Below are positions 36,890 to 52,842 of a stretch of 57,114 nucleotides of DNA, piece after piece. The translations under genes were made by a program, and so were the position numbers. Location: NCBI GenBank assembly GCA_947385425.1, contig CANDKY010000009.1, forward strand, positions 1-57,114. The letters run 5' to 3'. Positions within the stretch are counted from its first letter, which is position 1. Every line of letters begins with the position of its first letter. The stretch comes from an uncultured Lachnospiraceae bacterium. GTDB lineage: Bacteria > Bacillota > Clostridia > Lachnospirales > Lachnospiraceae. Under the pieces are notes generated by a model, which had not been told where the DNA came from, made no database searches, and saw nothing but the letters and a program-made list of their open reading frames with translations.

Positions 36890-36970
36890 AATGCCTTCTC
36901 TCCAAGGCCTTCTTCCACGTGAAAAGAAGCTCTTAAACGGTAAAGAACACCGTTGCGGCTTCTTTTCACG
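36890..36970. repeat. Structured repeat family D, copy D5 (short)
   Basis: It lacks the middle hairpin of the other D copies. It keeps CGTGAAAAGAAGCTCTT and GGCTTCTTTTCACG around a degenerate hairpin with an AACGGT/ACCGTT core. It contains the TGA stop of the deacetylase C-terminal part. Confidence 0.7.
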
Positions 36971-37376
36971 TTAACAGGCGGGAAACCGGAACAATTTCAT
37001 ATCCCAGCTTCTCCAGCTCCGTAAGAAGGGAATCCAGCGCATCCGCCGTATACCTGGCGCCGCTGTGGCACCGGATAATACTTCCATTCCCCAGTTCCTC
37101 ACTTTCCAGTACATTTTTCAATATGGCATCCACCCCATAATCCTTCCAGTCATAGCTGTCCACATCCCACAGCACAGACATATACCCGCATTCCATCGCA
37201 TTGTCAATCACACCTGTATCAAAATCCCCAAACGGCGGGCGGAACAGGGACATTTCATACCCTGTCAGCTCCTGCACGCGTGTATGGGTTTTCCGTATGT
37301 CTTCCAGGCATTCCTCCGTACTTAACTGGGAAAGATTCTTACGGCTTTCGCTCTGGTTTCCTATATCATGCCCTGC
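36966..37376 (-). pseudogene. Polysaccharide deacetylase, C-terminal part (split by the island)
   Basis: 137 codons encoding the second part of a CE4-type domain, from HDIGNQSESRKN through LFRPPFGDFD to VPVSRLLT. The N-terminal part lies 9.87 kb away at 47250-47642 on the same strand, and the parts join in frame at CCTGC. Joined length is 267 residues, normal for small membrane-anchored CE4 proteins. The two metal-binding histidines expected in the NHSxxH-type motif are replaced (NQSESR). An apparent longer frame to 37472 reads into MITE P1 and is not the native start. Confidence 0.85.
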
Positions 37377-37398
37377 TTGTGTCAGGGTAATGACACAA
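37372..37398. other. attL-like junction of the recombinase island
   Basis: The core CCTGC (37372-37376) is followed by the dyad TTGTGTCA-6 nt-TGACACAA (37377-37398). The same core with a related dyad stands at the other junction. The host gene reading frame ends exactly at the core. Confidence 0.8.
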
Positions 37399-37404
37399 AA
37401 AATT

Positions 37405-37661
37405 CCACCTGTGCGGTTGGCGCCCTGTGCCCTCCCGGCTGCCCCTGGCTGCACAGGAAAAGAAAAATCCATTCAAAAAAATGATGAGATTTCTTACGGC
37501 TTTTCCGGATAGATTTGCTGCCGTTTCTGGCGGAGCAACCGCCTGGCAGCAAATCTATCTGGAAAAACCGTTAGAAATATCTCATTTTTGCAGTTGGATT
37601 TTTCTTTTCCTGTGCAGCCAGGGGCAGCCGGGAGGGCACAGGGCGCCAACCGCACAGGTGG
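37405..37661. repeat. MITE family P, copy P1
   Basis: A 257-bp near-perfect palindrome starting CCACCTGTGCGGTTGGCGCC, flanked by a perfect 8-bp duplication AAAAAATT (37397-37404, 37662-37669). It inserted between the island end and the stop of recombinase 1. Confidence 0.93.
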
Positions 37662-37670
37662 AAAAAATTA

Positions 37671-39251
37671 CTATATTTTCAGTCTCTCCCGGAACTCCCA
37701 CTTAATTTCAACCACCTTCTCTGCACATACATCAACGCTGTCCATCAGGCACCGTAACAACTCCTGCCTATCTTCCGGGAATTCTATCCATTCCATTGTA
37801 AAAGTACCGCCCGCCCCAATTTCCTCCATCCTCTGTTCCAGCCTGCTTTCCTCCGCCTCCAATCCTGCCAGCTCTTCTTCCAGCTTTTCCGCAAGCTCCG
37901 CTTCCCGTTCCTTCCCTGCAAGATACTCTGCCTTATCCATTTTCCCCTGCCTGAACTGATGGTAAAGCTGCTTCATCTCTTCCCGCTTTTTTTCAGCCTG
38001 CCTCTTCTTCCTTTTCATCTCCGGCAAAAGTCCCTTACGCCTCTTTTCGCACAAATCCTCTATCCTCCGGAAAATCTCTTCCTTTTCTCCCGTCCCGTCC
38101 AATGACCGGAGCCGGCTCTCCGCTGCTTTCCATACAATCCCCTCCAGCTCCGCTTCCGGAATGCTTCCCACATTCCTGTGTTCCGTGATTTTCTGATACC
38201 TGCACCGGAACCTTTTCTTCTCCCTTACCATAAGCCGCCCGCATTCCCCGCACCGCACAAGCCCCTTGAGCGGAAACTGCCGTGCCCGGTCGTGTTTTAC
38301 CTGCTTCATCCTCTCCTGTACTTCCCGGAAGGTATCCCTGTCTATGATTGCAGGATGGGCATTCTCCACACGGATACGTTCTTCCTCCGGCACATAGATA
38401 CGTTTTCCGCTCCCCAGAGGGCCATTCCTGTAAGCGCCGGAAGATAGCACACCTGCATAAGTCTCATTCCTCAAAATCTGCCTGAGCGTAGTAGGGAGCC
38501 AGACGCATTCCCTTCCTGCAAAGGGCTTTTCCTTAAAAGCGGCATCCTTTCCACTGCGCAGAACCCCTTTATTGATCTTGTGCTGCTTCGGGGACGGTAT
38601 CCCTTCCCCGTTCAGTTCCCTTGCCAGCTCCGTAAGCCCCTTCCCTGAAAGATATTCCCTGTATATCCTCTGCACGATCCCCTTTGTCTCCCCGTCCGGT
38701 GTGAGAAATCCCTCCTCATCCCTCCGGTAGCCATAAAGCGGGACAGAACCCACATACAGCCCCTTTTTCCTCCGCACAGCAAGGGATGACTTTATCTTGT
38801 CCGAAATATCCTGGCTGTAGAGGGAATAGGCAAGGTTGCGGAAAGGCACATCGATATCCGGTGTCTTTCCCCTGTATTCCTCACTGTCATAGCCGTCATT
38901 TACCGCTATAAAACGCACCTGCATAAACGGGAAAATATGCTCAATATAATCGCCAAGTTCAATATAATCTCTTCCGAACCGGGAAAAATCCTTGACAACG
39001 ACACACTGTATCTCCCCCTTCTTTACCCCATCCATCATCTTTGCAAAACCGGGCCTTTCAAAACCGGTTCCTGAATAACCGTCGTCTACATATTGGACCA
39101 TATGGCTGTCCGCAAACTCCTGCTTCTTTTTTAAAAACCCCATCAGAAGCTTTCTCTGATTGCTGATGCTGTTGCTCTCATCCCTGGCCAGCCCATTTCC
39201 AATGGCTTTTTCATCTTCCTTTGAAAGTCTCATATATAAAGCAACTGTCAT
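37671..39251 (-). CDS. Large serine recombinase 1
   Basis: The protein has 526 residues. The resolvase-type catalytic domain begins MTVALYMRLSKED, where Ser of RLS is the nucleophile, and includes VVKDFSRFGRDYIE with the conserved arginines. A recombinase domain follows (YSQDISDKIKSSL, GYRRDEEG), then a reduced zinc-ribbon (CGECGRLM) and a coiled coil (KKRQAEKKREEMKQLYHQF). The C-terminal strand DSVDVCAEKVVEIKW parallels the tails of recombinases 2 and 3. ATG 39251 has GCAGGAGAA upstream. The longer frame to 39383 only reads through MITE B3, which lies 12 bp upstream of the start. Confidence 0.92.
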   Translation of the reverse strand: MTVALYMRLSKEDEKAIGNGLARDESNSISNQRKLLMGFLKKKQEFADSHMVQYVDDGYSGTGFERPGFAKMMDGVKKGEIQCVVVKDFSRFGRDYIELGDYIEHIFPFMQVRFIAVNDGYDSEEYRGKTPDIDVPFRNLAYSLYSQDISDKIKSSLAVRRKKGLYVGSVPLYGYRRDEEGFLTPDGETKGIVQRIYREYLSGKGLTELARELNGEGIPSPKQHKINKGVLRSGKDAAFKEKPFAGRECVWLPTTLRQILRNETYAGVLSSGAYRNGPLGSGKRIYVPEEERIRVENAHPAIIDRDTFREVQERMKQVKHDRARQFPLKGLVRCGECGRLMVREKKRFRCRYQKITEHRNVGSIPEAELEGIVWKAAESRLRSLDGTGEKEEIFRRIEDLCEKRRKGLLPEMKRKKRQAEKKREEMKQLYHQFRQGKMDKAEYLAGKEREAELAEKLEEELAGLEAEESRLEQRMEEIGAGGTFTMEWIEFPEDRQELLRCLMDSVDVCAEKVVEIKWEFRERLKI

Positions 39252-39262
39252 TTCTCCTGCCC

Positions 39263-39496
39263 TAGAGCGTGTTTGAAAAATCATTCCCATCATCTGCACG
39301 CGTTGTAACCGCTTCACCACTTTGCGCGATATTAAGACCAAATTAGTCTTGACTAAATTAGTCTTGACCACTTGGTCTGCCAAATTCAGGTTACATAGCC
39401 CGCTATGCGCCCTTCATTTGGCAAAGCATATATGCTTTTAATCTCCCACAAATTGTGACGCACATATGCTGGAAAGCATTTTTCAAACACGCTCTA
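39263..39496. repeat. MITE family B, copy B3
   Basis: 234 bp with perfect GAGCGTGTTTGAAAAAT termini and TA on both sides (39263-39264, 39495-39496). It contains a small internal tandem repeat with TTAGTCTTGAC units. It separates recombinase 1 from its upstream region and could carry its promoter. Confidence 0.9.
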
Positions 39497-39939
39497 ACCC
39501 CTCCTCTCCGCTGTTCGATACCACTGCCTGGAAATTTCCGCAATCCCGCCTATTCCGTTCTTCCGTCTCCAGCCGCCTTTCAATATATCCGCAGTCTTCT
39601 TTGCCTTATCAACCGAATGCTGCCTTACTCCCCTCTCATACCGGCCATGTGTCCATTATGGTTATATAATAAGTCCGAATTGGTTATATGCCGACAGAAA
39701 ACTGACCAATAATGTTACTGTTGATTACATGCTTGGCAACAGTGAAACTGTTATGTCTTCTTTTACAAAATATGAAATGGATCTTGTCATGGCTGCGAGG
39801 GAAGCAGACGACCGTGCACGGGAAGATGCCCTGGCCACACTGCGTTCCCACCGGATACGAAAGAAAAAGATACACCACGCCTCCCTCATTCGGGGCAAAC
39901 CTCTCACAAACTGTGGCGCACATCTGGCGAAAAGCAGAT
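39497..39939. other. Gene-free stretch between recombinases
   Basis: No gene is well supported. A plus-strand frame at 39729-39986 (starting MLGNSETVMSSFTKYEMDL) has a plausible helical N-terminus, but it runs into a family B remnant (about 39880-39955) and has no ribosome-binding site, so I do not call it. The region may be a decayed gene. Confidence 0.4.
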
Positions 39940-39955
39940 TTAAACAGGCCCGGAA
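39880..39955. repeat. Family B remnant (B4)
   Basis: It matches the interior and one degraded end of family B (CTCACAAACTGTGGCGCACA, then AAGCAGATTTAAACAGGC). It replaces the last codons of recombinase 2. Confidence 0.65.
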
Positions 39956-41730
39956 CAACCGTTCGCACTGTCTCCCGCATCTTTAAAGTCCAATACCACC
40001 TCCACCCTTTTCCCGTCATACAAATATATCCTGTCTACAAATACGGAAGCCATCTGCGCTGTCAGCTTTTCCCCCTCCTGCGGCGCAGCTGCATCTTTAT
40101 AAGACAAGGCTTCCTTTATACGCCCTGCCTGTTCCTTTTCCAGCCGTTCAAGAAATGCTGCCTTTTCTTCCAACTGCGCTTTCCTCCCTTCATGATAACG
40201 CATCCCATCCTCTATCTTCTGTTTTTCCTTCCGGTACCACGCCCTATTACCGTCCGGAATCCTGGCGTTTGAGATACCCCCGGCACTGTTATCTCTCGTG
40301 CCGCGCGCCTTATTGCGGTATTCCTTATACAGGAGCAGCTTTTTATTTTTCCCCTGCAGGACTTCCCTCTCCTCCATCCGCCTTTCCTTCTCCATATCCC
40401 TGCGCAGCTTCCGGAAAAATTCGCTGTGGAAGCGTGAAACCATACCTTCCAGACATCCCGCCCGGTGGATGGATGCCATAACAGCCTGGCAGACGATTGC
40501 TTCCAAATCCTTTTCAGAGATAGACTTTGAAGTACATTCCCACGCTCCCTTTTCCCGGTAAGTCCTGCAGCGGTATCGGTAAATACGAACTTTCCCGGCC
40601 TTCCTCCGGTAGTTCGTCCCCATCCTTGAAGCAGGCACAAGGCAGTCCCCGCAGAATACCTTCCCTCTTAACAGGTTTGCCGGGCGGATGACAGCCTCCC
40701 CCCGGGCATTCATTGCCTTATGCCGCTCCTTCCTTACCTTTAAGATTTCCTGTACCAGGCTGAAATCATGTTCCGTCACAATAGCTTCATGGGTATTCTC
40801 CGTTATCTTCCATTCCGATTCCTCCAGCATATGGACGCCGGACCCGTCAACCTTGGATTCCTTCCATTTATGGAGGGCCATATGCCCGGCATATGCCATA
40901 TTCTGCAGGATAGCGTTTACCGTAAACTCATTCCAATAGCGGCGCTCCCTCGCCTGCCGGTAAAACTCCCCTGTATCCCGATAGGCTTTCGGCGGGTTGA
41001 TCTTCTTTTCCGTCAGCCTCTTCACAATAGCCGCTGCCGAATCCCCCTGCACAGTCCAGGCAAAAATATCCCTTATGATCCCTGCCGGCTTTTCATCCGG
41101 CACAAACCTTGTCTTCCTTTCATCAGCAAATGCATATCCGTAGGGCGCATATCCTCCGTCATACTCCCCGCTCTCCTGCTTTGCCGCATAACTGGACGCC
41201 ACTTTTACGGAAGTATCCTTGGCAATATACTCATTTACAAGGTTCTTTAAGATAACTGCCAGCTTTTTATCCGCACTTTCTTTGTCAAAACTGTCATACC
41301 CGTCATTTATGGAAATAAACCGCACCCCGAGGAACGGGAACACTTTTTCCAGATAATTCCCCACTTCGATATGATCCCTGCCAAATCGTGAAAAATCCTT
41401 TACAAGGATGCAGTTGATATTCCCTTTCCTCACCTCCGCAAGCAGGCTGTCGAATGCCCGGCGGTCAAACCGGGTGCCGCTGATCCCGTCGTCTTTATAT
41501 TCCTTCACAAGAAAAAACTCATCCCTGCCCTTTATATAATCGCGCATAAGCATCTGCTGACTGGTGATGGAATCGCTCTCCGTAACAGAACTGTCAACGG
41601 AAAGCCTCGCATAGGTTGCGGTTCTGAACAGCCGGTTTCCGGCGGGGGATTCTGCTATCCCCCCCGCCGGAAGCCCCTCACGGGCAGTACTCCTGATCGC
41701 CTGCCTTGCCCTGTCCCTAACCCTTGCCAT
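39940..41730 (-). CDS. Large serine recombinase 2
   Basis: The protein has 596 residues. The catalytic domain starts after a 36-residue extension with TATYARLSVDSS and includes ILVKDFSRFGRDHIEVGNY. A recombinase domain follows (YIAKDTSVKVASSY), then zinc-ribbon cysteines (CGDC, CRTY, CTSK) and a coiled coil. The tail VFVDRIYLYDGKRVEVVLDF is family-typical, but the last residues fall in MITE remnant B4, so the native end may be lost. Its start overlaps the end of recombinase 3 by 14 bp, giving translational coupling. Confidence 0.92.
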   Translation of the reverse strand: MARVRDRARQAIRSTAREGLPAGGIAESPAGNRLFRTATYARLSVDSSVTESDSITSQQMLMRDYIKGRDEFFLVKEYKDDGISGTRFDRRAFDSLLAEVRKGNINCILVKDFSRFGRDHIEVGNYLEKVFPFLGVRFISINDGYDSFDKESADKKLAVILKNLVNEYIAKDTSVKVASSYAAKQESGEYDGGYAPYGYAFADERKTRFVPDEKPAGIIRDIFAWTVQGDSAAAIVKRLTEKKINPPKAYRDTGEFYRQARERRYWNEFTVNAILQNMAYAGHMALHKWKESKVDGSGVHMLEESEWKITENTHEAIVTEHDFSLVQEILKVRKERHKAMNARGEAVIRPANLLRGKVFCGDCLVPASRMGTNYRRKAGKVRIYRYRCRTYREKGAWECTSKSISEKDLEAIVCQAVMASIHRAGCLEGMVSRFHSEFFRKLRRDMEKERRMEEREVLQGKNKKLLLYKEYRNKARGTRDNSAGGISNARIPDGNRAWYRKEKQKIEDGMRYHEGRKAQLEEKAAFLERLEKEQAGRIKEALSYKDAAAPQEGEKLTAQMASVFVDRIYLYDGKRVEVVLDFKDAGDSANGCSGPV

Positions 41731-43357
41731 TGCACGGCCCCCTTTCCGCCATCCAATCCCGGCAGAGGAACGAAAGCTCCACGCGTTTCCCCTCGTATAC
41801 CCATATTTTGTCGATCAGGGAGCATATAAAACTGCGCCATACACCGTCTCCTGCATCGGGAAACCAACTCCCTGCATCCTTAAAACCGGCAAGCCGCTGC
41901 CTGGCCTCCCTGACTGCATCGCCCGCCTTCCCCAGCCTTTCCCTCCTCTTCCGGATCTGCCCTTCCAGTTCTTCGCAGCGCCCGGAATAAAAAGCCCTCA
42001 TCTCTTCATACTCTTCTTCCGAAAGCAGCCCCTCCTCCCTGTCTGTGCATAGCCCTGACAGCATACCGGTAGTTTCCGCAAGCTCCTGTTCCAGCTCCGG
42101 CAGCCGGGCATCCGTCAGGGAAAACGGCCGCATCCCCTCCATTGCATCCTCTGCCGCCTTTCTGATTTCCTCCGCATCCGCTGCCATCCGTATCTGTCCC
42201 TTCACAGCCTCTGTGACAAGCGAGGCAAGCTCCTGCTCTTTGATACTGTGCCTTGTACAGCCTTTCTCTACATTGTAAGTCCTGCAGATGTAAAAAATGG
42301 ACTGCTTTCCTTTATAGGCAGTCTTTCGGCGTATCATCTGCCTGCCGCAGTCCGGGCAGTAAAGGATACCGCTGAAAAGATATACCCCTTCCTGCCCCGG
42401 ATTCACCCTTGTATCCTTTTTCAATAACCCCTGCATGGTATCAAACTGCTTTTCCCCGATCAGGGCTAAATCCTCCTGCCTGTATCTGCTCTGCTCCGAT
42501 TCCGGTTTTGCCGCCATCTTTTTAATTTTATGGTTGACGCGCTCCTTCTTCCCCTGCACCACCAGCCCCTTGCACAGCGGATTCGACAGTATCCTTCCTA
42601 CCGCCGCAGGGCTCCACCTGGAATACAGGCCCTTCTGAAAACCGCTCTGATAACGGATGCCGAGACTGCGCTTGTAATCCGCCGGGGCAGGGACTCCAAG
42701 GGCGTTGAGCCGCTCCGCTATCCTGCTGTTGCTCATGCCGTCCAGCTTCCACCGAAAGATAAGCTTCACATTCTCCCCGGCCACGGGGTCGGCTACCAGC
42801 TTATTACGGTTGCTGCTATCCTTCCTGAACCCATAGGATACATATGCCCCCGTGTATTCCCCATTCTCCCGTTTGCTCTCAAGATGGCTCTTTATCTTCA
42901 CTGAAAGATCCGCGCTGTAAGCATCATTGACAAAATTCTTTACCGGTATGACTATATTCTTCTCCGTCCGGTCTGCGGTCAGGGAATCGTAATGGTCAGT
43001 GACCGCAATAAACCGCACCCCCGCCGCCGGGAAGATCCTCTGCAGATACCTCCCGGCTTCTATATACTCCCTGCCAAAACGGGAAAGATCCTTCACAATA
43101 ATGAGATTGACCTTTCCCGCTTCCATATCCTTTATCATCTCCTGAAAAGACGGGCGCCGGAAGTCAGAACCGGTATACCCGTCGTCCACATATTCCTTAT
43201 AGACATGGATATCCTCCCTGTTTTTCAGGAAATCATGTATCAGCCGCTTCTGGTTGGTAATGCTGTTGCTCTCTCCCTTGCGGCTGTCGTCGCATACATC
43301 CCCGTCCTCTTTGGAAAGGCGCAGGTATACTGCCGCCGTATAAAGCTTCTCTTTCAT
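41717..43357 (-). CDS. Large serine recombinase 3
   Basis: The protein has 546 residues. The catalytic domain begins YTAAVYLRLSKEDGD with the Ser nucleophile and has IIVKDLSRFGREYIEAGRY. The recombinase domain has YSADLSVKIKSHLESKRENG. It carries a complete zinc-ribbon (CPDCGRQM with CRTYNVEKGC), a coiled coil and the tail LIDKIWVYEGKRVELSF. I chose ATG 43357, with AAGGGGA 7 bases upstream, over an in-frame TTG at 43363. It is the first of the two overlapping recombinase genes. Confidence 0.93.
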   Translation of the reverse strand: MKEKLYTAAVYLRLSKEDGDVCDDSRKGESNSITNQKRLIHDFLKNREDIHVYKEYVDDGYTGSDFRRPSFQEMIKDMEAGKVNLIIVKDLSRFGREYIEAGRYLQRIFPAAGVRFIAVTDHYDSLTADRTEKNIVIPVKNFVNDAYSADLSVKIKSHLESKRENGEYTGAYVSYGFRKDSSNRNKLVADPVAGENVKLIFRWKLDGMSNSRIAERLNALGVPAPADYKRSLGIRYQSGFQKGLYSRWSPAAVGRILSNPLCKGLVVQGKKERVNHKIKKMAAKPESEQSRYRQEDLALIGEKQFDTMQGLLKKDTRVNPGQEGVYLFSGILYCPDCGRQMIRRKTAYKGKQSIFYICRTYNVEKGCTRHSIKEQELASLVTEAVKGQIRMAADAEEIRKAAEDAMEGMRPFSLTDARLPELEQELAETTGMLSGLCTDREEGLLSEEEYEEMRAFYSGRCEELEGQIRKRRERLGKAGDAVREARQRLAGFKDAGSWFPDAGDGVWRSFICSLIDKIWVYEGKRVELSFLCRDWMAERGPCNGKG

Positions 43358-43450
43358 TGCCAAATCCCCTTCTTTCCGCCTGTGCGGCAGGTTTTGTACG
43401 TGTTCCCCAGAGGACTGCCGTACAGACAGCGCTTTTTACCAACAGTTTCT

Positions 43451-43544
43451 TAGATCGCATTTGAAAAATCCTTCCCACCCTCTGCACACGGTGTAACCGC
43501 TTCACCGCTTCGCGCAATATAATGAGATTTAAACCAGACTCTTA
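43451..43544. repeat. MITE family B, copy B5 (degenerate)
   Basis: About 94 bp with ends related to family B (GATCGCATTTGAAAAATC and GAGATTTAAACCAGACTC) and TA at both borders. Its outer TAA is the stop codon of the DUF6870-like gene. Confidence 0.65.
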
Positions 43545-43892
43545 CAGCCCGGCCGCCGCCATGTGTTCTATATACTCCTTCAAACGGTCTGTCAGCGTTG
43601 CATCCGTATCCGCAAAGCTCAATTTGACAACATATTCCCCCTGCCTGTACAGGTATGGGTTCCTGATCTGTCTGAGAAATTCCTTCTTCTTTTCAATACC
43701 GCTTAAACTATTGTCTATTTCAATCTTCAGAATATCAGCCAGGGCGTCCCTGTCAACCTCCCGTATGTCCGACTCCTTCATTTTTTCCAGGGCACCCGGC
43801 TCAATACATTCCGGCACACTCTCTGCCGCTTCCTCCGCATACCCTTCTTCCGCTGATAATATTCGGTTATCTTTCTCTTTTTCTTTTCCCAA
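43542..43892 (-). CDS. Small DUF6870-like protein of recombinase modules
   Basis: The protein has up to 116 residues. The conserved part is the C-terminal 80 residues: MKESDIREVDRDALADI, FLRQIRNPYLYRQGEYVVKLSF and ADTDATLTDRLKEYIEHM. I associate this pattern with DUF6870, which recurs beside recombinases in Clostridia; its function is unknown. The TTG start at 43892 has a weak site, and ATG 43781 is an alternative. The reading frame remains open upstream to MITE P2, so the 5' end may have been altered by that insertion. Confidence 0.7.
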   Translation of the reverse strand: MGKEKEKDNRILSAEEGYAEEAAESVPECIEPGALEKMKESDIREVDRDALADILKIEIDNSLSGIEKKKEFLRQIRNPYLYRQGEYVVKLSFADTDATLTDRLKEYIEHMAAAGL

Positions 43893-43967
43893 GGCTTCCG
43901 ATCCACCCAGATTGTTTGTACCAGTATATTCCCTCCCTGTTTGTCCGTATTCCCCCGTAAACTATTT

Positions 43968-44219
43968 CCACCTGTGCGGTTGGCGCCCTGTCCCCTCCCG
44001 GCGGCTCTGGCTGCACAGGAGAAAAAATCCATTCAAAAAATGATGACATTTCTTACGGCTTTTTCGGACAGATTTGCTGCCGTTTTTGGCGGAGTCACCG
44101 CCTGGCAGCAAATCTGTCCGGAAAAACCGTTAGAAATATCTCATTTTTGCAGTTGGATTTTTCTTCTCCTGCGCAGCCAGAACCGCCGGGAGGGGACAGG
44201 ACGCCAACCGCACAGGTGG
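43968..44219. repeat. MITE family P, copy P2
   Basis: A 252-bp palindrome closely related to P1, flanked by a different perfect 8-bp duplication AACTATTT (43960-43967, 44220-44227). The right duplication contains the stop codon of the membrane protein gene. Confidence 0.93.
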
Positions 44220-44221
44220 AA

Positions 44222-44914
44222 CTATTTTGCGGCAATGACATTACCGGTACTCCTGCATTCCTGTCTCATAGCAAAGTATCCAATCAGTACCGTCCACACA
44301 TAAGCGCAGGTCTTAGGGATCATCAGCATCCCGATGAATGGAATGACATCCGCCCACAGCACCACCGGGATATAGAAGCCAAAGCTAAGCACAATAGTCA
44401 GCCACATCCAGCGGAATGCCTGATCCCCACGCCCCCGTGCACTGCGATAGAACAGCACCACCACCAGAAGGCCCAGCAAAGCAAAGGGGATATTGCGGTA
44501 AATGCCCCAGGAGAGGGGCGCTTCGGCGCTGAGCCACTGGTTCTGAGGCATCATGCACAGAGCAATGCGCACACCGGCAAGGCCATACACAGCGGCGGTC
44601 AGGCTTCCCTTGCCCCTGATCTGATACCGCTGCCTCCAGACATAGTACAGCAGCACATAAAAAATTGTCATCGTCACCGAAGTGATCCATTTTCCAAGCC
44701 CCAGAGGGACCGTATAGTTTTCCAGCCCCGTTGTACACAGCGCCAGGGCACGGGGAACCAGGTGGAAAGAATCGCCTGCCCCCAGCACTACCGCCATCCA
44801 GCCAAACAGCCGGAATTGACATTCCCCCCTGCTGCCCCGGATCATCAGGATACCGACAGTAATGACTGAAATCAGATAAACAGTGTCAAATAAGGTTTCT
44901 ACAAATGCCTGCAT
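44222..44914 (-). CDS. Seven-TM membrane protein, function unknown
   Basis: The protein has 230 residues and seven hydrophobic segments evenly spread, starting TVYLISVITVGILMIRG and ending VWTVLIGYFAMRQE. I recognise no family. AAAGGAGG is at ideal spacing from ATG 44914. A TetR-type operator (45093-45105) lies upstream and matches one in front of the TetR gene, so it is probably that regulator's target. A truncated family C element sits between operator and gene. Confidence 0.8.
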   Translation of the reverse strand: MQAFVETLFDTVYLISVITVGILMIRGSRGECQFRLFGWMAVVLGAGDSFHLVPRALALCTTGLENYTVPLGLGKWITSVTMTIFYVLLYYVWRQRYQIRGKGSLTAAVYGLAGVRIALCMMPQNQWLSAEAPLSWGIYRNIPFALLGLLVVVLFYRSARGRGDQAFRWMWLTIVLSFGFYIPVVLWADVIPFIGMLMIPKTCAYVWTVLIGYFAMRQECRSTGNVIAAK

Positions 44915-44995
44915 AATTTATCCTCCTTTATTCTCAATTTTATTTTGAACTTCGGCAGCGGCAAATACCGCCCTCCCAAAGTTACCCCTTAGTTC

Positions 44996-45080
44996 CAATG
45001 TCATTTACTTAAGCTTTTCGTGGCGCTGCAGACCATATATCTCAATCCGGACCATCGAAAGACGCCGGCACTTAGGCGCC
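44996..45080. repeat. Family C fragment (C7)
   Basis: One terminus (CAATGTCATTTACTTAAGCT) with the adjacent arm through TAGGCGCC; the other half is missing. It lies between the TetR operator and the membrane protein gene. Confidence 0.8.
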
Positions 45081-45092
45081 CTGCCCTTTTAA

Positions 45093-45105
45093 TGAACAAT
45101 GTTCA
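45093..45105. promoter_or_regulatory. TetR operator copy 1
   Basis: TGAACAATGTTCA, identical to the site at 45715-45727. Half-sites TGAAC/GTTCA form the dyad. It is upstream of the seven-TM gene. Confidence 0.7.
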
Positions 45106-45141
45106 ATTTCCCGGAAAAAAATACCACAATGAAGTGGTTTT

Positions 45142-45699
45142 TTAATAAAGAATCCTGTTGACAAGCTCCAGCACCGTTCCGGGATCATAATCCTGCCGCA
45201 GCAAAGCGGACAGCATCAGGGAAAATAAGACATTGGCAAATTTCTCCGCCGTAAACTGCTCTGTAAAGGCATCAGGCCGAATCCTACTATCCTGCTCCAG
45301 GACAGAACACAGCTCTTTCAAAATATGCTGCCAGGTCTGCTGCATACGCTGTTTCCCGTCCGGCTTATCCTCCCGCATGAACCCCAGGGAATGGAGGGTA
45401 AAAAATCCGGGATACTGCCTGCCGCCATACTCCATCCGTCCATACATCCAGATAATGCATGCCTGCGTATCCTGAAATACACCCCCATCCTCCGGGCGGT
45501 GAAATATCTCACGCCAGACACTCTCTACCGTGGCCCCCACCAGCGCCGCTTTGGAATCAAAATAATTGTAGATAGAACCCACGGATACCCCGCAGGCCGC
45601 CGCAACCGAACGGATATTGACAGCAGGCCATCCCTGTTGCTGAATAAGCTTCCGGCTGGTTTTCAAAATCTCATCCTCTGATGTTACAATAGTATTCAT
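45142..45699 (-). CDS. TetR-family regulator of the island
   Basis: The protein has 185 residues. The helix-turn-helix is in NIRSVAAACGVSVGSIYNYF. The C-terminal domain is about 130 residues with no recognised ligand site. I chose ATG 45699 because the operator TGAACAATGTTCA lies 15 bp upstream, inside the longer possible frame. The sharing of the operator with the seven-TM gene suggests repression of both. Confidence 0.9.
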   Translation of the reverse strand: MNTIVTSEDEILKTSRKLIQQQGWPAVNIRSVAAACGVSVGSIYNYFDSKAALVGATVESVWREIFHRPEDGGVFQDTQACIIWMYGRMEYGGRQYPGFFTLHSLGFMREDKPDGKQRMQQTWQHILKELCSVLEQDSRIRPDAFTEQFTAEKFANVLFSLMLSALLRQDYDPGTVLELVNRILY

Positions 45700-45714
45700 C
45701 CCATCACCCCAATA

Positions 45715-45727
45715 TGAACAATGTTCA
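45715..45727. promoter_or_regulatory. TetR operator copy 2
   Basis: TGAACAATGTTCA just upstream of the TetR start, identical to the copy at 45093-45105; fits autoregulation. Confidence 0.7.
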
Positions 45728-45755
45728 TTATAGCCTAAATCCATTGTATTGTCAA

Positions 45756-45773
45756 GTTACAGTTTACTGTAAC
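45756..45773. promoter_or_regulatory. GTTACAG/CTGTAAC dyad
   Basis: Inverted repeat GTTACAG-4 nt-CTGTAAC in the divergent region between the TetR gene and the riboswitch promoter. It could be an operator; the binder is unknown. Confidence 0.4.
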
Positions 45774-45790
45774 CTTGTCAATAGATGGCT

Positions 45791-45832
45791 TACTATTCCA
45801 GCATTTTAGCTTACTATTCCAGCATTTTAGCT
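45791..45832. repeat. Perfect 21-bp tandem duplication at the metal promoter
   Basis: Two identical adjacent 21-bp units beginning TACTATTCCAGCATTTTAGC end two bases before the -35 box of the riboswitch promoter. They may be activator sites or a recent slippage product. Confidence 0.85.
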
Positions 45833-45833
45833 A

Positions 45834-45862
45834 TTGACAGGTTTGAATATTCATGTTATCCT
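45834..45862 (+). promoter_or_regulatory. Promoter of the metal-efflux unit
   Basis: TTGACA (45834-45839), a 17-bp spacer and TATCCT (45857-45862). It drives the riboswitch leader and the CDF gene. Confidence 0.8.
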
Positions 45863-45889
45863 GTATCTACTCTTTGCACTGCATATAAA

Positions 45890-45980
45890 TCTACAGTACA
45901 AACTGAACAGGCCGTGACGGACGTCATGGAGTCGGGTCACATAAGTGGCAGTGGAATCTTCATCCACGGGACAGTAGCTG
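45890..45980 (+). promoter_or_regulatory. Probable NiCo (czcD) riboswitch
   Basis: The leader contains GAACAGG, then GACGGACGTCATGGAGTCGG, and later ACGGGACAG, in the order and spacing I recall for NiCo RNAs, which bind Ni2+ or Co2+. The ACGGGACAG end is also one arm of the terminator that follows, so metal binding would block termination and turn the gene on. The downstream gene is a CDF exporter, the expected target. Confidence 0.8.
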
Positions 45981-46006
45981 CTAATACTGTCCGTGGGTGT
46001 TTTTTA
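45964..46006 (+). terminator. Riboswitch-controlled terminator
   Basis: Stem CCACGGGACAGTA paired with TACTGTCCGTGG (one bulged G), loop about 8 nt, then GTGTTTTTT. The left arm overlaps the riboswitch core. Confidence 0.88.
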
Positions 46007-46068
46007 TGCTCTTCATAAGGGCACTCTTCTAAAATCCCCACATATATTGGTGTCATAGAGCTATCTTA

Positions 46069-46240
46069 GGAACTGTATGTAAATAACCTGTGACAGTTGC
46101 GCCGGATTTTTCTCTGAGTGTGCAAAATTACTACGTAATTACCCAAAATCGGGCGCATAGCGGGCTATGTAACTGATTTTGGGTTGGTGCAATCGGAGAA
46201 AAAGATCAGCAAATAGCATAGGTTATTTACATACAGTTCC
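46069..46240. repeat. MITE family A, copy A4
   Basis: 172 bp with ends GGAACTGTATGT and ACATACAGTTCC and a TTA duplication (46066-46068, 46241-46243). It sits between the riboswitch terminator and the CDF ribosome-binding site (GGGAGG six bases past it). Confidence 0.88.
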
Positions 46241-46263
46241 TTACATTTGGGAGGTAACTTGAT

Positions 46264-47193
46264 ATGGATAAAAAAAGGAGCAGGAAAAAGGGGAATGACG
46301 GTTTTACGGGTGATTTCCGGAGAGTGGCTGACAGGGTGGGCACTGTGAGTATTATAGGTAATATGATACTTTCAGGATTTAAGCTCATAGCAGGTATCGC
46401 GGCCCATTCCAATGCGATGATCAGTGACGCGGTCCATTCTGCATCGGACGTATTCAGTACAGTAGTAGTAATGATTGGGGTCAGGCTTGCTTCAAAAAAA
46501 GCGGACAAAGAACATCCCTACGGACATGAACGTATGGAATGTGTGGCGGCTATTATACTGGCAATGGTTCTTTTTATGACAGGGCTTGGTATTGGGATGG
46601 AAGCATTGAGAAATATCCTGTCCGGCAGTTATAATGAACTGCAGGTGCCGGGGCTTTTAGCGCTGGCTGCGGCGGTAATATCCATTATTGCCAAAGAGGC
46701 GATGTTCTGGTATACAAAAATTTATGCGGTCAAAATTGATTCCAGCGCATTGCTGGCAGATGCATGGCACCACCGTTCCGACGCCTTTTCTTCCGTAGGG
46801 GCTTTGATAGGAATTGTAGGGGCAAGACATGGCTTCCCGGTTATGGACTCTGTTGCCAGCCTGGTGATCTTTGTATTTATCGTAAAGGCTGCGTATGACA
46901 TTTTCAAGGATGCCGTTGACAAAATGGTGGATCATTCCTGTGATGAAGAAACGGAAAAGCGTATTTACGAATTTGTTATGAAGAACAGGGAAGTGATGGG
47001 CATAGACTCCCTGCATACGCGTATTTTCGGCAATCGGATGTATGTGGACATAGAAGTCGCCGTGGATGGCTCTTATACTCTGAGAAGGGCCCATGAAATC
47101 GCAGAAGAGGTACATGAGGACATTGAAAGGAATTTCCGGAAAATTAAACATATCATGGTGCATGTGAATCCGGCGCAGGCAGACAAGGGATAG
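46264..47193 (+). CDS. Cation diffusion facilitator (CDF) metal exporter
   Basis: The protein has 309 residues. A Lys/Arg-rich N-terminus is followed by six TM segments; the metal-site motifs are SDAVHSASDVFS in TM2 and ADAWHHRSDAFS in TM5. HPYGHERME after TM2 is typical. The C-terminal cytosolic domain ends HIMVHVNPA. It exports divalent metals in exchange for protons. The probable NiCo riboswitch upstream suggests nickel or cobalt as physiological cargo. GGGAGG precedes ATG 46264. Confidence 0.94.
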   Translation: MDKKRSRKKGNDGFTGDFRRVADRVGTVSIIGNMILSGFKLIAGIAAHSNAMISDAVHSASDVFSTVVVMIGVRLASKKADKEHPYGHERMECVAAIILAMVLFMTGLGIGMEALRNILSGSYNELQVPGLLALAAAVISIIAKEAMFWYTKIYAVKIDSSALLADAWHHRSDAFSSVGALIGIVGARHGFPVMDSVASLVIFVFIVKAAYDIFKDAVDKMVDHSCDEETEKRIYEFVMKNREVMGIDSLHTRIFGNRMYVDIEVAVDGSYTLRRAHEIAEEVHEDIERNFRKIKHIMVHVNPAQADKG

Positions 47194-47219
47194 CGGAAGA
47201 GCAGCAAAAAGAATTTCCC

Positions 47220-47249
47220 TTGTGTCATTATTACGACTCAATCACCTGC
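47220..47249. other. attR-like junction of the recombinase island
   Basis: A dyad TTGTGTCA-6 nt-CGACTCAA (47220-47241) followed by TCA and the core CCTGC (47245-47249). It mirrors the attL-like site. Confidence 0.8.
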
Positions 47250-47642
47250 CGCCAATATTGCCTTCACATCCTCCGGATAATTTTCCACCCATCCCCCGGT
47301 CAGGAAAAAGGTGGCATGGATACCGTGCCGTTCCAGAATCCCCAATATCCGCTCCACATCCCCATTCCCTCCGGCCGCATCAAAAGTCAGCGCCACCTGC
47401 TTCCTGTCCGTTTCCACGCGGTATATCGGATTCGCCTGCCCTCCCATGCTTGTCACAGTAACCGCCCCCGGCAATACCACCATCACACCTTTGACAATCG
47501 CCAGGATCGCCAGGGCAAATACCATCACCCATATTCCTTTTGCAAGCCTCATCGTCCTGTAATCCTCCTGCGCCAGCCCTTCTTCCGGCTTCCGCCCTGC
47601 ACCTGCTTCTTTACCTGCATCCTGTTTTTTTAACTCTCCCAT
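47250..47642 (-). pseudogene. Polysaccharide deacetylase, N-terminal part (split by the island)
   Basis: 131 codons encoding a cytosolic start, one TM helix (GIWVMVFALAILAIVKGVMV), and the first CE4 motifs VALTFDAAGGNGD and ATFFLTGGWVENYPEDVKAI, breaking off at AILAAG. In the standing genome the frame runs one codon (Asp) into the island and stops at TGA. GTGGCGG precedes ATG 47642. In canonical CE4 enzymes the first motif is TFDDGP; the second Asp, a metal ligand, is Ala here, as in the related TFDAAWG subfamily I recall from Clostridia. Confidence 0.85.
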
Positions 47643-47755
47643 AAAAAACCGCCACATACTTGATTGTTATTCAAGTATATGACGGACTGCTTTTCCTATA
47701 TTCTGGTACTCCGTGCTTGAAGTTCCCATGCATATTTTCGAGGATGTTCTTACTT

Positions 47756-51865: not shown

Positions 51866-51968
51866 ACCGTGTATGAAAAATGTTTTCCCTGAGATGTGCG
51901 GCACACAAAGTAGTGAAGCGGTTACACCGCGTGCAGATCGGGGGAATGATTTTCCAAATATGCTCTGG
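51863..51968. repeat. MITE family B, copy B7 (degenerate)
   Basis: Ends GACCGTGTATGAAAAAT and ATGATTTTCCAAATATGCTC; the left TA is 51863-51864. Its first bases form the SGNH stop codon. A partial family A copy abuts its right end. Confidence 0.75.
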
Positions 51969-52055
51969 GGAACTGTACAAAAATAACCTGTAAGAGTTGC
52001 GCCGGATTTTTCTTGGAAAGTGCAAAATTACTACGCAATTACCCAAAATCGGGCG
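51969..52055. repeat. Family A partial copy (A6)
   Basis: GGAACTGTACAAAAATAACC through GCGCCGGATTTTTCTTGG to ACCCAAAATCGGGCGCC; the second end is missing. Confidence 0.7.
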
Positions 52056-52734: not shown

Positions 52735-52842
52735 TTTACATAGCCCACTATTCGCCCTTCATTTGGCAAAGCATAATTGCTTTTAATCTCCCACAAATTG
52801 TGACACACATCTCAGGGAAAGCATTTTTCAAACACACTCTGG
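52735..52842. repeat. Family B partial copy (B8)
   Basis: It has the internal block ACATAGCCCACTATTCGCCC and one end GCATTTTTCAAACACACTC; the other end is missing. Confidence 0.7.

Follow-up and report, generated by a model that had tools for sequence, protein, structure and literature searches.

A serine recombinase element at the catalytic motif of a CE4 deacetylase gene

In contig CANDKY010000009.1 of an uncultured Lachnospiraceae bacterium (GenBank assembly GCA_947385425.1; the genome is designated G000), a stretch of 57,114 nucleotides, referred to here as the window, holds a CE4 deacetylase gene that is split by a 9,873-bp segment. This segment is probably a member of a family of elements that carry three serine recombinases and whose attachment site lies in the DNA of CE4 motif 2, in deacetylases of the sporulation type. 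The split gene (gene 1, minus strand) consists of a PdaB-like N half (47250..47657; PF01522, 1.4e-13) and a C half (36966..37376; PF01522, 3.1e-12), and deletion of 37377..47249 joins the two into one open frame, ...AILAAG-HDIGN..., of 267 codons counted from the second ATG. A preliminary description of this DNA had proposed both the single gene in two parts and an uninterrupted gene of 267 codons, and both proposals are borne out; its further argument that each half is a whole number of codons adds nothing, since this merely follows from the in-frame join.

Comparison with related genomes supplied the uninterrupted gene. The search covered 16 genus members, of which 14, counting the window's genome, match the C half of gene 1 at an identity of at least 60%. 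The gene is split in three of these (G000, G004 and G010) and whole in 11, and in all 11 unsplit orthologs the N half runs on into the C half, with an empty site at the same codon. Because the joined frame is open and 11 whole orthologs exist, several of which adjoin the PepT or glycosyltransferase-like neighbours that are also seen in the window, the insertion and its empty site are real.

The rejoined window protein has NQSESR where CE4 motif 2 expects two histidines, and it lacks approximately 15 C-terminal residues that are found in all 18 orthologs compared. Both features argue against the suggestion, made in the preliminary description, that the function of this copy may depend on excision, as does its circle promoter score, which ranks second from the bottom among 11 end pairs. 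The first motif-2 histidine is also lost in 7 of the 11 unsplit orthologs and is retained in 5 of 8 split copies of gene 1; the nearest unsplit ortholog, in G013, likewise lacks both histidines, with isoleucine in place of the second. Since the first histidine is lost in unsplit copies too, the histidine defect need not stem from the insertion, and decay after insertion was rejected as an explanation for the first histidine. In the gene 1 lineage (orthologs L010-L021), the frame is open despite this loss, and it is possible that the lineage is a pseudoenzyme. A separate observation concerns G470 (L171 6363-9064), where the N half of gene 1 is interrupted again by a segment that carries another serine recombinase, with 24% identity to recombinase A of the window element.

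The same ends at other CE4 genes

The left end of the element (attL side, TTGTGTCATTACCCTGACACAAGCAGG; 37372..37398, minus strand) is of a type found at 14 CE4 junctions in nine genomes, namely at gene 1 in eight genomes, at gene 3 in five and at gene 2 in one; G010 and G473 enter this count with C halves only. The sequence TTGTGTCATTACC[CT]TGACACAAGCAGG is present in 13 of the 14 cases. The right end (attR side, core GG, GGTGATTGAGTCGTAATAATGACA; 47223..47249, minus strand) has its counterpart at 11 CE4 splits, a count that sets aside one inverted copy at a contig end of G004. In the window's genome, which has six CE4 genes by our reading, three are split at the same codon. Besides gene 1, a PdaA-like gene on contig 31 holds 833 bp with a nucleotidyltransferase-HepT (MNT-HepT) pair, and a third CE4 gene on contig 1 holds a 5.5-kb phosphotransferase system (PTS) operon, composed of a BglG-type antiterminator (CAT_RBD/PRD), EIIA, enzyme I and EIIBC, whose left end has diverged. 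No recombinase was found among the open reading frames (ORFs) listed in these two elements, and together with the element on contig 4 of G466, three elements with the shared ends are devoid of recombinase genes. Two of the three left ends in the window's genome share CCCTGACA, which is absent from the remaining 12 CE4 left ends, as would be expected if both elements were moved by one system. The cargo differs across the elements and includes a cation diffusion facilitator (CDF), the MNT-HepT pair, the PTS operon, M23 plus bactofilin, ABC/FtsX, and Uma2 plus a hydrolase plus an FGGY kinase. In G468 (L125 7990-9329), the M23 peptidase lies beside the bactofilin as cargo within the deacetylase gene.

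When the 397 genomes of the family were searched with up to two mismatches, the left-end pattern was found in 8 genomes (none for the control), at 11 places, five of which run into CE4, one into an enolase and two into an SpmA-like gene, the other three (G218, G430 and G418) being without assignment. A scan of a collection of named genomes gave 16 stretches with the left end: 11 run into CE4 at the same codon, one into the enolase and two into the SpmA-like gene; of the remaining two, one starts CE4-like and then departs, and one is without assignment. The right-end pattern, at the same tolerance, was present in 5 of the 397 genomes (1 of 397 for the control), at six places. Two of these belong to G000, one in the window itself and one on contig 31, and no CE4 context was seen at the others (G183, G072, G295 and contig 86 of G010). 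In G466 (L097/L130), one left end leads into AGHHMG, after which the CE4 frame is lost, with a small gene-1-like fragment upstream; this is possibly a rearranged or secondary site. A viral carrier was also considered and rejected, for the left-end pattern occurs in no viral contigs, and of 19 candidate stretches obtained with recombinase A, two held relatives (39% and 55%).

Crossover core and target codon

The sequence CCTGC, which the preliminary description had noted at both junctions, is indeed present there in gene 1, but as a crossover core it is ruled out by comparison of the CE4 targets. The two junctions in gene 3 of G466, ...GAGGAA-GG-TGATTGAG on the N side and ...CAAGCA-GG-ACATC on the C side, have only AGG in common. 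Because the junctions of the other CE4 targets share only AGG or GG, the core is assigned to a 2-bp GG (CC on the plus strand), and the extra identity in gene 1 is, on this comparison, a coincidence between the gene and the element end. The direct repeats at the element junctions are very short in either case (the GG core, and CCTGC in gene 1).

The target codon common to the three CE4 genes of the window's genome is EGG/AAG|H-x-x-GN, in catalytic motif 2. A scan for unsplit CE4 motifs covered 59 loci, and 29 rows were kept, with at least one gene present twice. In these 29 rows, GG (0,1), CA (3,4), GG (12,13) and AA (15,16) are invariant; since the scan demanded glycine at two codons, both GG pairs are built in, and only CA and AA count as findings. 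The invariant positions fall in codons of motif 2, G-H-x-x-G-N. It thus appears that the recombinase recognizes a catalytic motif at the level of its DNA, which would account for paralogs being targets.

The recombinase triplet and its history

Three large serine recombinases, A (41717..43363), B (39940..41730) and C (37671..39251), lie on the minus strand of the window, B and C in conserved order, and all three are open frames with catalytic, recombinase and zinc-ribbon domains (PF00239, PF07508 and PF13408 in each). The DUF6870 gene (43542..43892, minus strand; PF21757, 1.4e-27) adjoins recombinase A in five relatives (G466, G468, G470, G471 and G472), and its product is a candidate accessory or directionality factor. 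Orthologs of recombinase A with 82-85% identity occur in 6 of 12 genomes examined (G466, G467, which is the same as G004, G468, G470, G471 and G472), each of which has a split CE4 gene, and the best matches in the other six are at 31-46%. In gene 1, the triplet and DUF6870 are found together in G471, G472, G468 and G466, and over two contigs in G470. Reduced forms are seen in G004, whose gene 3 holds a 3.7-kb element of A and B alone, with the A frame starting approximately 45 bases past the core, and whose gene 1 holds a recombinase C with a match that starts at residue 54; the analysed slice of recombinase B in G466 has one stop. At each of the eight loci that show the recombinases as well as the CE4 gene, the two share a strand. 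In the window element, as in triplet-integrase elements, three adjacent serine recombinases thus have a common orientation with respect to the target gene.

The synonymous divergence (dS) of the recombinases is approximately 0.5-1.1, and in all pairs that were compared the CE4 halves have the higher value. For G000 against G466, gene 1 has a DNA identity of 58-61% with saturated dS, and recombinase A has an identity of 83% with a dS of 0.75; in the close pairs G466-G471 and G468-G472, the recombinase dS is again lower than that of the CE4 halves. Because of this lower dS, the elements have probably moved between hosts and landed repeatedly in the same codon. An ancestral split kept by vertical descent was rejected as the general case for the same reason, with the CE4 halves as the host gene of the comparison. 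Since the insertions look repeated, the ratio of nonsynonymous to synonymous divergence (dN/dS) was not taken as proof that the halves were kept for function after insertion.

A promoter sequence split between the element ends

When the two ends of the window element are joined as in a circle, the junction has inverted arms, TTGTGTCATTA...TAATGACACAA; arms at least as good arose in 1 of 2,000 mononucleotide shuffles. In most end pairs of the family, joining of the ends also brings TTGACA from the left end and TATAAT from the right end to a distance of 17 bases (TTGACA-N17-TATAAT), and the resulting promoter sequence faces the recombinases. Compared with the sigma-A consensus, the circle junctions match 12/12 positions in 7 of 11 end pairs and 11/12 in two (contig 31 of G000 and contig 111 of G004), and integrated junctions score 7-10. 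In dinucleotide shuffles of two perfect junctions, 12/12 was reached in 9 and 1 of 60,000.

Proposed mechanism and alternative explanations

On the reading that we consider likely, the elements move as follows. The triplet of A, B and C, with DUF6870, would recognize the motif DNA and cut at the 2-bp GG core; the element ends would be joined into a circle, and circles would be inserted into CE4 genes with a fitting motif. Elements that have the same ends and are free of recombinases would probably be moved in trans, and consequently different cargo would come to sit in several CE4 genes of one genome. Once circular, the element would have a strong promoter of the sigma-A type, made up by its two ends and directed at the recombinases or the cargo, and this would promote reinsertion. 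The CE4 gene is broken by insertion, and precise excision would restore it.

Several points weigh against this mechanism. In the assembled genomes from which the elements are known, no excision product was seen, and the link between triplet and split gene is incomplete because G469 (the same as G010) and G473, whose best matches to recombinase A are at only 46% and 38%, carry CE4 C halves behind a left end. The three elements free of recombinases could be deletion derivatives stuck in place, movement in trans being deduced from the shared ends. As for the promoter, the window circle scores 9/12, the second lowest value among the 11 and no higher than that of its right junction in the integrated state (9/12), and the PTS element circle scores 7, below its own left junction at 8; since these circle scores do not exceed those of integrated junctions, there is no promoter gain in either element. 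In 4 of the 11 end pairs, the ends are on different contigs and their pairing was assumed, and the seven perfect promoters are related sequences, not independent ones. Finally, the yardstick for dS has the CE4 halves as its sole host gene.

It is hardly credible that two unrelated half genes came to lie beside an island by coincidence or through an assembly error. The window's genome is a 198-contig draft, but the same junction recurs at all 14 places in the nine genomes, including Lachnospiraceae bacterium 10-1, whose copy of gene 1 holds an element of 44.8 kb, and the halves match one ortholog end to end except for the C-terminal loss. It is possible, although we regard it as doubtful, that the insertion in the window is an old one, in a deacetylase-like gene that the host can do without, and that it has lost the ability to excise, the open joined frame being a trace of precise insertion. 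The NQSESR sequence, the shortened C end, the 9/12 circle promoter and the several repeats inside the element are consistent with such a fossil, and the loss of the first histidine in unsplit relatives implies that the gene may be non-catalytic anyway. On the other hand, all three recombinase genes are open with their full set of domains, the arms are preserved at both ends, and no stop interrupts the joined frame before an early one near the C end.

Programmed excision, in which the elements leave the mother cell chromosome during sporulation as skin, gin and SP-beta do, so that the deacetylases are restored when needed and host function depends on it, is rather unlikely in our estimation, even though several observations favour it. 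The host CE4 gene is preceded by a sigma-E-like promoter, GAATATA-N15-CATATACT (47674..47703, minus strand), which agrees at 15/15 positions with the letters that we take to be the sigma-E consensus. It is the only match in the window and was not matched in 100 shuffles, with a pattern that was chosen after the motif had been seen. By eye, a similar motif lies upstream of gene 1 in 16 of 17 orthologs, the split ones included; in an upstream search against shuffles, the fraction is at most 0.063 in 12 of the 17, but 0.15-0.44 in the other five. All nine carrier genomes searched encode SpoIVA. The unsplit target orthologs are PdaB-like (193-225, cut-off 237.4), PdaA-like (284-289, cut-off 298) or undecided CE4 proteins, none of which exceeds its NCBIfam equivalog cut-off. 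As outlined in PMC3789822, sigma-E controls three polysaccharide deacetylases in C. difficile, and pdaA is under sigma-G. The retention of the first motif-2 histidine in most split copies of gene 1 is also consistent with programmed excision, as is the departure of gin, with its three serine recombinases, from gerE in sporulation (outlined in PMC5595907).

Against programmed excision, a convincing sporulation-type promoter was looked for before the recombinases and was not found, the insertions appear repeated rather than fixed, the C half in the window is shortened, and the N half in G470 has a second recombinase insertion. The best candidate for such a promoter, GAATACG-N15-AATATACT (13/15 positions, in 5 of 6 genomes), was rejected, as it lies upstream of the DUF6870 domain, apparently within the coding sequence of that gene, for which reason its conservation may be for coding. 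In general, excision appears to be a reasonable but unproven idea, which is somewhat weakened for the window copy. A wider version of this idea is that one triplet serves dispersed cassettes in several sporulation deacetylase genes, that sporulation frees all of them and that circles in growing cells reinsert by means of the promoter formed only in the circle. We hold this version to be improbable and speculative; if it were true, it would amount to an integron-like cassette system tied to spore development and landing on the codons of a catalytic motif.

Comparison with known systems

The proposed family of triplet elements at CE4 genes resembles several known systems in part. Its differing cargo, common ends and apparently single recombination system at fixed sites recall integron cassettes. 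Integrons use a tyrosine integrase and attC hairpins, whereas the recombinases here are large serine recombinases and the sites lie inside deacetylase genes; attC was not among the features searched. The window element has three recombinases and a defined gene target, unlike Tn4451, a mobilisable element that confers resistance and has a single large resolvase. The likeness to Tn4451/Tn4453 is that of a clostridial serine-recombinase element with a 2-bp target and, putatively, a circle promoter, as far as these traits are summarized in the sources: Lyras and Rood (2000, cited in PMC13023037) described a promoter for TnpX that arises in the circular intermediate, and the target of TnpX is 2 bp long (PMC3158075).

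The nearest relatives in kind are, judging from the portions of the reports that describe them, gin (PMC5595907) and the triplet serine integrases of streptococcal integrative and conjugative elements (PMC4701971). The gin element, in gerE of Bacillus cereus ATCC10987, measures 28.6 kb, has a 9-bp overlap and is excised in sporulation by GirC and GirX; as in the window, a non-phage element with three serine recombinase genes splits a host gene, in gin a sporulation gene, and precise rejoining restores the frame (outlined in PMC5595907). In contrast to gin as so outlined, the family described here has a 2-bp core, several paralogous targets per genome and cargo elements free of recombinases, and it is known from sequence only. 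The streptococcal triplets likewise disrupt their target and have 2-8 bp repeats, according to the relevant parts of PMC4701971, but theirs reside on conjugative elements in mutT, hsdM or traG, whereas the target here is CE4 motif 2. The elements skin (sigK), SP-beta (spsM) and yin (yabG) interrupt sporulation genes and are described as prophages or prophage-like, and sporulation excision is reported for skin and SP-beta in the accounts available; the window element is, by Pfam, without phage genes. A split host coding sequence, a frame restored by removal and a site-specific recombinase encoded within are traits that the window element shares with skin, gin and SP-beta.

Other features of the element and related elements

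The order from the right end inward is CDF (opposite strand), TetR, a membrane-like protein, DUF6870 and recombinases A, B and C. The CDF cation-efflux transporter (46264..47193, plus strand; PF01545, 1.5e-46) also scores above the cut-off of TIGR01297, and the TetR-type regulator (45142..45744, minus strand) matches PF00440 at 1.9e-14. The protein of 44222..44914 (minus strand), also cargo, is judged to be a membrane protein and gave no Pfam, NCBIfam or PADLOC match at 0.001. The preliminary description had called the segment an intact element with metal-efflux cargo; the three open recombinases, the two ends and the CDF gene agree with this, while the term metal efflux depends on the one CDF gene. 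Among the eight element ORFs covered by the Pfam scan, none matched relaxase or conjugation genes, and none matched phage structural or replication genes by Pfam, PHROGs not having been searched.

A long palindromic repeat of approximately 270 bp, resembling a miniature inverted-repeat transposable element (MITE), lies just inside the left end (37403..37663; arms of 82 nt, 94% complementary), with a second copy between the recombinase module and the cargo (43955..44232). This repeat is common in its own genome, with 84 match rows when both strands are counted. Another repeat, AGAGCGTGTTTGAAAAAT..., lies between recombinases B and C (39263..39497) and makes up most of 68 match rows in the same genome; partial copies of it are seen at 43451-43520, 51906-51970 and 52736-52840.

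Arms similar to those of the window element are present in sister elements at the enolase gene (L093, TIGR01060) and at the SpmA-like gene. At L093 4715-5398 and in L076, the related left end runs into the C part of the enolase, and the N part was not found in the stretches examined. The SpmA-like gene, presumably so named, matched PF07670 below the cut-off and had no NCBIfam match. In G477 (L134 3899-9120), two stacked pieces lie behind an unbroken SpmA-like gene, and each of them closes with a left end plus a 3' fragment that has been displaced; one piece carries candidate anti-phage proteins that match PADLOC HEC-02A and HEC-02B, and no recombinase-like ORF is among those listed for the two. 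This locus looks like a cassette array at another gene. The element at the SpmA-like gene seems to spare its host gene, whereas the CE4 elements break theirs.

Implications

Serine-recombinase elements are usually thought to have one home gene. In G000, three distinct deacetylase genes bear one type of element end, apparently because the codons of a shared catalytic motif are recognized. Since two of these three sites hold cargo free of recombinases, the distribution suggests a cassette-trading system of Lachnospiraceae with genes for efflux, sugar uptake, toxin-antitoxin and transporter functions. In the open-access literature searched, no description was found of deacetylase genes of one cell occupied at the catalytic codon by differing cargo, with a promoter split across the circle. 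The circle-assembled promoter, which has the exact consensus in most relatives, offers a testable switch, and if excision is tied to sporulation, mobile DNA would control three genes of the spore-wall type simultaneously.

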